DNA of 64,000 nucleotides. Source: Heliorestis convoluta. GTDB lineage: Bacteria > Bacillota > Desulfitobacteriia > Heliobacteriales > Heliobacteriaceae. Location: NCBI RefSeq assembly GCF_009649955.1, contig NZ_CP045875.1:2213501-2277500 (forward strand). Direction: 5' to 3'. This document shows, in pieces, positions 16,685 through 50,223 of the stretch. Both the position numbers and the translations under genes were made by a program. Under the pieces are notes generated by a model. It was not told the DNA's origin. It worked only from the letters and a program-made list of their open reading frames with translations, and searched no databases. Every line of letters begins with the position of its first letter. The first letter of the stretch is position 1.

Positions 16685-18439
16685 ATGGATACTGTCAACT
16701 TGACGATTGATGGCCGAAAGGTAACGGTCCCAGCCAACACCACGGTCCTTGAAGCTGCTAAGAAATTAAAAATTAAAATTCCTACGTTATGTTATGTTAA
16801 AGAAATCAATGCCATTGGCGCTTGTCGAATGTGCCTGGTAGAGGTTAAAGGAAACCGTTCTTTACAGGCCTCCTGTGTTTTACCTGTAACAGAAGGTATG
16901 GAGATTAAAACGAACAGCCCACTGGTACGCACAACAAGACGAACCGTTCTAGAGTTAATCTTATCGAACCACAATCGAGAATGTACTTTCTGTGCTCGCA
17001 ATAGCAAATGTGAGTTGCAAAAGCTAGCTATGGAATTGGGAGTCCGCGAAATATCTTTCCCAGGGGAAGCAGCGAATCAACCCATTGACGAAGGCTCGCC
17101 AGCCCTTCATCGAGACGGTAGCAAATGCATTCTTTGTCGGCGCTGTGTCGCCGTCTGTCATCAAATCCAGACTGTCGGTGTTATCCAAGCAACGGAACGA
17201 GGATTCAAAACGACGATAGAACCTGCTTTTGGGAAAAGTCTTGATGAAGTAGCTTGTATTCTCTGTGGTCAATGTATCCATGCTTGCCCTGTGGCAGCCT
17301 TGCAAGAAAAAGATGATCGAGAAAAAGTATGGAAAGCCTTGTCTGATCCGGCGCTTCATGTGGTTGTTCAGACGGCACCGGCGGTACGTATTGCTTTGGG
17401 AGAAGAATTTGGATTGGAAGAAGGGTCTCCAGTCACCGGTAAAATGGTAGCCGCTCTTCGCCTTCTAGGCTTTCATCGCGTCTTTGACACAGATTTTGCC
17501 GCTGATTTGACCATTATGGAAGAAGGTCATGAGCTTCTTCATCGTCTGCAAAAAGGTGGCACTTTGCCTATGATCACCTCATGCAGTCCCGGTTGGGTAA
17601 AGTTTGTAGAACATCACTATCCCAACTTGCTACCGCATCTTTCAAGCTGTAAGTCACCGCAGCAAATGATGGGTGCCATTGTAAAAACCTACTATGCACA
17701 ACAAGCTGCCATCGATCCAGGCAAAATCTATCTAGTTTCTATTATGCCTTGTATCGCCAAAAAGTACGAATGCAATCGCCCTGAAATGAACGCTTCAGGC
17801 TATCAAGACGTAGATGTTGTTTTAACGACAAGAGAATTGGCTCAGATGATTCGACAGGCCGGTATCTGTTTTACTGACTTGCCAGAGGAAGACTTTGACT
17901 CTCCCTTGGGTGAATCAACGGGAGCTGGCCTTATCTTCGGTGCCTCTGGTGGAGTAACCGAAGCAGCATTGCGAACGGTTGTTGAAATTGTTACAGGGCA
18001 AGAGATGGAGACCTTAGACTATGAAGAAGTGCGAGGTCTTGAAGGAATTAAAGAAAGTACAGTAACAGCGGGGGAGCAACAGCTCCAAGTAGCCGTAGCT
18101 CATGGAACAGGCAATGCCAGGAAACTGTTAGATCAAATTCAAAAAGGAGAAAAGAAATATCACTTCATCGAGGTTATGGCTTGTCCCGGCGGTTGTATCG
18201 GCGGTGGTGGACAGCCAATTGCTCCAGTAGGATTCAATGAAAAGAGAGAAGTTCTATTAAAACGAAGTGAAGCCCTATATCAAGATGATAAAAGAAAAAA
18301 AATAAGAAAGGCCCACGAAAACGAAATGATTCAAAAACTCTATCGAGATTTTCTGGGCTCACCCAATAGCAAAAAAGCGAAAGAATTGCTTCATACACAA
18401 TACTGCAAGCGGTCTCTAGTGCCAAGTGATTCGGAATAG
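16685..18439 (+). CDS. hydA: HydA, catalytic subunit of the [FeFe] hydrogenase
   Basis: A 584-residue protein reducing protons or oxidising H2 at an H-cluster. In order: plant-type [2Fe-2S] domain (CRMCLVEV), the His-ligated cluster HNRECTFCARNSKC, two [4Fe-4S] motifs (CILCRRCVAVC, CILCGQCIHAC), then the H-cluster motifs TSCSPGW, MPCIAKKYE and EVMACPGGCIGGGGQP. The L1 motif has Ser where many enzymes have a second Cys. The C-terminal tail is charged and longer than the minimal domain. The ATG at 16685 has AAGGAG at 16667-16672; the frame is open further upstream to 16646. It is the last gene of hydCBA. The maturases HydE, HydF and HydG are not in the window. Confidence 0.95.
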   Translation: MDTVNLTIDGRKVTVPANTTVLEAAKKLKIKIPTLCYVKEINAIGACRMCLVEVKGNRSLQASCVLPVTEGMEIKTNSPLVRTTRRTVLELILSNHNRECTFCARNSKCELQKLAMELGVREISFPGEAANQPIDEGSPALHRDGSKCILCRRCVAVCHQIQTVGVIQATERGFKTTIEPAFGKSLDEVACILCGQCIHACPVAALQEKDDREKVWKALSDPALHVVVQTAPAVRIALGEEFGLEEGSPVTGKMVAALRLLGFHRVFDTDFAADLTIMEEGHELLHRLQKGGTLPMITSCSPGWVKFVEHHYPNLLPHLSSCKSPQQMMGAIVKTYYAQQAAIDPGKIYLVSIMPCIAKKYECNRPEMNASGYQDVDVVLTTRELAQMIRQAGICFTDLPEEDFDSPLGESTGAGLIFGASGGVTEAALRTVVEIVTGQEMETLDYEEVRGLEGIKESTVTAGEQQLQVAVAHGTGNARKLLDQIQKGEKKYHFIEVMACPGGCIGGGGQPIAPVGFNEKREVLLKRSEALYQDDKRKKIRKAHENEMIQKLYRDFLGSPNSKKAKELLHTQYCKRSLVPSDSE

Positions 18440-18640
18440 AGGTTTATTGTAAAGCTTTGCAGTGGGGCTCAAAAGCTTTGCGTAGATTGGAATCTGAGAA
18501 GGCGATTTCCCAGCGACAAGGAAATTGCCTTCTTTATATCGAAACTATTCACTTGTCTTGATGAATGTGGCATACTTCAAGTAGAGTATATTCGCCAAAA
18601 ATACATTATAACTTTATAGTAAATCGTAAGGATGGTGTCA

Positions 18641-19657
18641 ATGAGTAAAAAAGAAGACTTAGTTGATGTTTCACTTTTATTGAAAGAACTGAAGAAAGCA
18701 AACGGTCAGATGGGGCAAGTGGTCAAGACAATTGATCAGATTACCAAAAAAACCAATCTGCTCGCATTAAATTCAGCCATTGAAGCAGCTAGAGCGGGAG
18801 AAGCGGGACGAGGCTTTCGAGTCGTTGCCGATGAGATCAAGAAATTAGCCGATCAAAGCTTTTCTTCTACGAAAGTGAGTCATGATCTCATCGAAAATAT
18901 TCAGAAAAAAGCCAATGAAGTGATCGCCGTTCGTACAGCTGACGTAGCCTACGATACGATTGACAAAATCGATCGCAACCTCTTTGAACGGAACTGCGAC
19001 GTGCAAGCCTGGGCCACTTTTGACAAAATTAAGAGATGCTTGGAAAATGAAAAAGCCGAATGCGCACCTGCTACAGAATTACTTCGAAAAATTATTGATG
19101 TTTATGAAGTATACTATGATCTATTCGTACTGGATCGAAATGGCACTATTGTTGCAGCGGGACATTCCCGAGATGTTGTCGGTCAGGATATGTCGCAAAG
19201 AGAGTGGTTTCGGGAAACAATGCGAACCCAAGGTGTCTATGTAACAGACCTTTATTACTCAGAGTCCTTAAAAGGCTATACGGTTGCCTATTCTTGCCCG
19301 ATTCGAGATGATCAGGGCAAAATACTTGGTGTTTTTTCAACGCGCTTTAATTGGGATTACATATATGATATTCTTGACAGTGCTCGCATTGGAAGCACTG
19401 GTGATATTGTTGTCGTCAACCAATCGGGCACGGTCATTGCATCGCGAGATCGTACCGGTATACTTACAAGAGAGCTAAAGGGACTGCAAGCTGTACAAAA
19501 AGCCATTGCAGGAGAGCACTATGGTTATACCATAGAAAATGACGAAATGGGTCGAACACAGATTTTTGGCTATGCTCATACGAGGGGTTACAATGCGTAC
19601 CAAGGGAAAAACTGGTCTGTCATCGTTACAGAACTGCTAGAAAATCGTCATAAGTAA
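18641..19657 (+). CDS. Soluble chemoreceptor-like protein with reversed order: MCP signalling fragment then Cache domain
   Basis: A 338-residue protein with no membrane segment. Residues about 10-85 carry the tip of an MCP signalling domain ([22 protein letters not shown] and [11 protein letters not shown]), the region that binds CheA and CheW. Residues about 105-335 form a Cache sensor domain ([47 protein letters not shown]). In ordinary receptors the Cache domain is outside the cell and N-terminal, with the signalling hairpin at the C-terminus. Here the order is reversed and the hairpin is much shorter than usual. It could be a cytoplasmic sensor or a decoy for the array. AAGGA stands 8 nt before the ATG at 18641. 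Confidence 0.85.
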
Positions 19658-49875: not shown

Positions 49876-50223
49876 TTACTCCCCTTCAAAATAATCAATT
49901 GAAAGCTCCCGACCTGCAATAACCTTAACGGTAAAAGATTGGCATTGAGGACAAGTAAAAAGCTGCTCCCCTTGCACCTCAAATTCTAAGGTGCAACTGT
50001 TGCAATAAGCTCTTGTCTCTATCCACTCAATTTCCAAAAGAGCCTGGGGAGAAAAAGGAGGTTCTTCTTTGACTACGGAAAAAGCAAATTGCAATGCATC
50101 GGGCAAAGCATGGGTCAAAGCGCCGACTGACATTTTCACTTTGGTGATGCTTTGAATCTTGTTCTTTGCTGCTTCTTCCTGCAGCAAGGAGACCATACTT
50201 TGCATTAAAGCCATTTCATGCAG
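49876..50223 (-). CDS. hypA: HypA, nickel metallochaperone, apparently with a CTG start
   Basis: A 115-residue protein delivering nickel to the hydrogenase large subunit. The zinc site is CNSCTLEF and CPQCQSF. The family always begins MHE, where His2 binds nickel. The first ATG in frame (50214) would remove it, but three codons upstream the sequence is CTG CAT GAA ATG, giving MHEMALMQSMV if CTG at 50221-50223 initiates. AGGAGG lies exactly 8 nt before that CTG, whereas it is 17 nt from the ATG. So a CTG start is proposed. AGGAGG can also pair with the CCTCCT just before it reaches CTG (loop GAGC), which could mask the site. Confidence 0.92.
   Translation of the reverse strand: MHEMALMQSMVSLLQEEAAKNKIQSITKVKMSVGALTHALPDALQFAFSVVKEEPPFSPQALLEIEWIETRAYCNSCTLEFEVQGEQLFTCPQCQSFTVKVIAGRELSIDYFEGE

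Follow-up and report, generated by a model that had tools for sequence, protein, structure and literature searches.

The hypA gene of the phototrophic bacterium Heliorestis convoluta very probably initiates at a CTG codon (50223-50221, minus strand), a start that is strongly supported because it is fixed both by homology and by the function of the nickel site. The gene was studied within a window comprising the whole stretch of 64,000 nucleotides that was analysed. Its frame (minus strand, 50223-49876) reads LHEMALMQSMV from the CTG onwards and comprises 115 codons followed by a TAA stop. Full-length profile matches identify the product as HypA (PF01155, E 2.6e-29, 101.9 bits against a cut-off of 28.9; TIGR00100, 91.8 bits against a cut-off of 88.1), and this is the sole HypA match in the genome, a single contig of 3,218,981 bases. 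The protein retains both CxxC motifs (CNSC and CPQC) and His-Glu at residues 2-3, and the Met1 of Met-His-Glu is obtained if CTG initiates. The setting is an uptake [NiFe] hydrogenase cluster, in which hypA is preceded by hupD, encoding the hydrogenase maturation endopeptidase (TIGR00140; 50240-50722, minus strand), and followed by hypB (TIGR00073; 49190-49864, minus strand), and the frames neighbouring hypA are open. We assigned hupC, hupD, hypA, hypB and hypF by family matches, and hupS, hupL, hypC, hypD and hypE by eye from their translations; the genome paper on H. convoluta HH, a soda-lake heliobacterium, mentions hypABCDEF and hupCDLS (PMC7143216). In comparison with the HypA/HybF nickel metallochaperones of PF01155 and TIGR00100, the gene shares the MHE motif, the two CxxC zinc motifs and the hup-hyp cluster, and departs from them in the initiator codon only.

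The sequence-only reading had argued that the MHE start appears only if CTG initiates, and indeed the frame remains open for nine codons upstream of the CTG without a single ATG, GTG or TTG. It had also placed AGGAGG exactly 8 nt before the CTG, which is borne out by the positions of the Shine-Dalgarno sequence (50237-50232, minus strand) and of the spacer (50231-50224); the commonest spacing is 7-10 nt in the 81 starts of the genome that have ortholog support and a Shine-Dalgarno of at least 5 nt. However, the motif itself is not proof of a start: AGGAGG-N5-11-CTG occurs twice in the 64-kb window against 3.1 expected, and since it is no commoner than chance, the case rests on homology and function. 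In Helicobacter HypA, nickel binding requires the Met1 amine and His2, with Glu3 a likely ligand, and a variant with Leu inserted between Met1 and His2 is deficient in nickel binding (PMC5557546). Because the nickel site needs both of these groups, a working protein is not expected from an internal start at Met4, or from a product extended or fused at its N-terminus. A HupD-HypA fusion by frameshifting at the hupD stop was accordingly rejected, as the N-terminal amine would be buried and the intergenic frame is not conserved. A search for an altered initiator tRNA revealed nothing unusual: the usual anticodon stem-loop motif is present at five places in the genome, and the three that were read are tRNA-Met(CAT) genes, of either the initiator or the elongator type.

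Relatives, a check proposed in the sequence-only reading, place the start at the same codon. A search over 61 genomes, including that of H. convoluta, gave 67 HypA matches in 55 genomes, and the codon aligned with the CTG could be read in the 66 other matches (29 closest and 37 further ones), where it is ATG in 44, GTG in 16, TTG in 6 and CTG in none, and is followed by His-Glu codons in every case. The pattern DTG-CAY-GAR-ATG-DSN-YTN-ATG was found in 28 of 398 genomes of the phylum (12 with ATG, 10 with GTG and 6 with TTG), and its CTG version in one, namely H. convoluta itself; these motif matches were not individually confirmed as HypA, and the 398-genome sample overlaps that of 61 genomes. 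A CTG start conserved across the lineage was rejected, given that the sole other genome of the genus compared has ATG. GTDB r220 contigs contained two matches to GGAG-N5-11-CTG-CAY-GAR-ATG-DSN-YTN-ATG, a pattern limited to the MHEM..LM type with GGAG and applied to a collection from which near-identical genomes are perhaps omitted. Neither was taken for HypA: one is embedded in a long frame resembling, in our reading, a PAS-type protein, and the other begins a frame of 19 codons that has no significant similarity to HypA. A separate locus search with HypA, made in named genomes, confirmed no relative. Starts other than ATG are found in 16 of the 29 closest relatives, in 6 of the 37 further matches (22/66 overall), and in 16 of the 28 MHEM..LM matches of the phylum. 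A general preference of hypA for weak starts was discarded, the overall proportion being about the genome-wide level (42/112).

CUG initiation is rare, but a single CTG start in this genome is expected rather than strange. CUG accounts for 0.024% of bacterial starts and yields 0.86% of the output of AUG in a published assay (PMC11497404); applied to 3,263 genes, this frequency predicts about 0.8 CTG starts. Reconstructed switches to CUG number four among 68,906 starts (2/61,358 from AUG, 1/5,080 from GUG and 1/2,468 from UUG), and stronger Shine-Dalgarno sequences tend to make up for weak starts (PMC5622118). We also compared 58 stretches of 20 kb and the window, leaving out two stretches that overlapped it, with 60 stretches of a comparison genome. 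The survey gave 426 reciprocal-best frames, of which 294 remained once shadow frames had been discarded; 112 of these have a shared canonical start and a Shine-Dalgarno in both genomes and served as control starts, and 182, including hypA, were left unresolved by the rule. In this partial survey 14 frames were flagged as non-canonical, four of them with CTG in H. convoluta, and in our reading hypA is the only CTG flag with a 6-nt Shine-Dalgarno and without a better alternative. In a MutS-like frame (genome 640001-660000, minus strand 16917-18729 of that stretch) homology extends upstream of the first ATG and the start candidates are TTG and CTG, of which the TTG, six codons upstream of the CTG, is the more ordinary choice. 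Like other rare bacterial CUG initiators, that of hypA is a weak NTG codon presumably read by fMet-tRNA, here with a strong Shine-Dalgarno; unlike them, its position is fixed by function, the N-terminal residues being the metal site, and its C also pairs with the Shine-Dalgarno. The hypA CTG is a rare, well-constrained case of a known kind of start and not a new kind of system. We found no report of a CUG-started HypA in the open-licence literature, where the genome paper alone was found on hypA in Heliorestis, and among the papers listed on HypA start codons or translational coupling, the titles and the beginnings of the abstracts do not name a CUG-started hypA.

The AGGAGG was also claimed to pair with the adjacent CCTCCT, and the two are perfect complements that form a predicted 6-bp stem, AGGAGG(GAGC)CCTCCT (50237-50222, minus strand). 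The 3' arm (50227-50222) includes two bases of the start codon, C and T, which are predicted to pair with bases 2 and 1 of AGGAGG, respectively. The minimum free energy is -9.8 kcal/mol in 33 nt, which is equalled by 6 of 200 shuffled sequences (z -2.2), whereas in longer contexts the fold is not exceptional (37/200 shuffles as stable in 60 nt and 38/200 in 92 nt). The window has a single AGGAGG-N3-8-CCTCCT, compared with none in 100 shuffles, and it is the only one in a sample of 1,224,000 bases of the genome, the window included. GGAGG-N3-10-CCTCC is present at none of the 112 control starts, and a looser 4-nt complement at one. The local fold from -21 to +12 reaches -9.8 kcal/mol or lower at one of the 112 (median -3.5), and opening the Shine-Dalgarno through the start codon in 103 nt costs 12.8 kcal/mol; the control starts have a median of 7.2, and seven of the 112 exceed the hypA value. 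Replacing the C of CTG by A in silico raises the mean openness of the Shine-Dalgarno from 0.04 to 0.33 (103 nt), changes the 33-nt fold to -5.9 kcal/mol and takes 2.5 kcal/mol off the opening cost, which at 10.3 continues to exceed the median of the controls; replacement by T takes off only 0.9 kcal/mol. With A, G or T as the first base the site is predicted to remain partly closed (10.3-11.9 against 12.8 kcal/mol). In this model a single base, the start-codon C that faces a Shine-Dalgarno G, would both weaken initiation and tighten the lock.

That the CTG start is real and the hairpin a chance by-product without regulatory role is a substantial possibility, to which we give somewhat less than an even chance. 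The hairpin is absent from the seven other heliobacterial copies that were folded, including the sister species, and this absence, the unexceptional 60-92 nt folds and the seven control starts that are harder to open all fit such an origin. Against it stands an exact complement of the 6-nt Shine-Dalgarno found once in 1.22 Mb. A transcription terminator was rejected as the role of the hairpin, for no T-run follows it. In one other heliobacterium, the start of hypA is covered by a different, fairly stable fold (33 nt, -7.9 kcal/mol).

Returning to a regulatory role for the hairpin, coupling of hypA translation to hupD is a plausible inference, although we hold it at slightly below even probability. 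The hupD stop (TAA, 50242-50240) is separated from the CTG by a gap of 16 nt and ends 2 nt before the stem, and stop and stem presumably lie within the footprint of a terminating ribosome. Upstream ribosomes are known to open masked initiation regions (PMC6728339). Termination-reinitiation drops steeply with distance, and one study set gaps of 11-20 nt aside because coupling at such gaps differs from gene to gene (PMC10666635). As in the systems described under UTNI or termination-reinitiation in these two sources, the Shine-Dalgarno and start are predicted to be sequestered and the upstream gene ends just before them; the hypA case differs in having a 16-nt gap instead of an overlap, and a short, local predicted structure seen in this genome only. 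The hupD-hypA spacing in seven other heliobacteria is 33, 108, 108, 64, 24, 24 and -8 nt, so that no conserved architecture was seen. Of the interpretation in the sequence-only reading, the CTG as initiator stands on strong support. As for coupling, the heliobacteria compared conserve neither the hairpin nor the spacing of 16 nt, and the regulatory reading of the start is a reasonable hypothesis.

Taking these observations together, we consider it likely that hypA is a functional gene with a CTG start, a predicted stem over its Shine-Dalgarno, low output and, less surely, opening dependent on hupD. In this scheme, CTG would have replaced a canonical NTG as the initiator of a gene that, as far as can be judged, remained functional. 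An fMet-tRNA would initiate at the CTG (50223-50221), aided by the strong AGGAGG at normal spacing, to give a product M-HEMALM whose N-terminal amine and His2 are expected, from its sequence and from homology, to bind nickel. The C and T of the CTG would complete the predicted stem with the Shine-Dalgarno, so that free 30S subunits would meet a largely closed site and a weak codon, resulting in low output of HypA, and a ribosome terminating on hupD would cover and open the stem, such that much of HypA initiation would follow hupD translation. HypA synthesis may be low, as this fits the published CUG efficiency and the predicted hairpin; a point against the scheme is that CUG at about 0.86% of AUG might give too little product. 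A stronger version, in which the first base of the start codon is a one-base double lock that lowers initiation and also closes the Shine-Dalgarno stem, with HypA made almost only behind ribosomes finishing hupD, appears to us rather unlikely.

The remaining explanations concern the gene or its start codon. That hypA is a decaying or near-null allele, its good start lost together with the need for HypA, is improbable. The low output predicted for CUG and the hairpin would suit decay, as would the identity between the two Heliorestis genomes, which is 64% for HypA, without rate asymmetry, against 89% for HypB, 91% for HupC and 75% for HupD. However, changes unique with respect to four outgroups are balanced (9-12 in this copy and 8-11 in the ATG-started sister), and this similar pace of hypA evolution in H. 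convoluta and the sister species argues against decay. The frame is intact, the four cysteines are in place, as are the residues conserved across eight heliobacterial copies, the neighbouring frames are open and the genome has no second HypA match. A base error or clone-specific variant hiding an ATG, GTG or TTG would explain why none of the 66 other HypA matches and none of the 397 other genomes of the phylum has CTG, yet it is very improbable. Isolated substitutions are rare where 14-fold 454 and 35-fold Illumina coverage are combined. Such is the coverage of this genome (PMC7143216), and by our estimate the roughly 0.8 true CTG starts expected among 3,263 genes far exceed erroneous ones at a consensus error of at most 1e-5; moreover, the same C forms a base pair in the rare stem.

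Initiation at Met4 (ATG, 50214-50212, minus strand), or at Met7 by way of an out-of-frame ATG mini-ORF encoding MKWL and a stop (50219-50205, minus strand; its ATG, a possible competitor start, lies 12 nt behind AGGAGG), is the least credible explanation: although these are the first canonical in-frame codons and the published start-codon table of the genome has no CTG class (ATG 63.5, GTG 15.7 and TTG 20.8%, summing to 100.0; PMC7143216), one CTG gene in 3,263 (0.03%) would be invisible at the 0.1% rounding of that table, AGGAGG is 17 nt from the Met4 codon, Met4 is an ordinary internal residue conserved in the aligned heliobacteria, which start three codons earlier, and the product would, as had been pointed out for the first ATG, lose His2 and Glu3, along with the native amine. 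The TAA of the mini-ORF overlaps the ATG of Met7, and its ATG is a by-product of the CAT-GAA codons, arising whenever a CAT codon for His2 is followed by the G of Glu3.

HypA offers a natural test of how start codons are chosen, since the nickel site is made of its very first residues and leaves the initiator no room to shift, and the CTG of H. convoluta hypA is, judged from sequence alone, an unusually well-constrained case. It also illustrates that gene callers limited to ATG, GTG and TTG could deprive a protein of a functional motif. If true, the double lock would link a nickel chaperone with the endopeptidase whose step follows the insertion of nickel, and, if real, it would be a compact means of keeping a metallochaperone scarce and timed.
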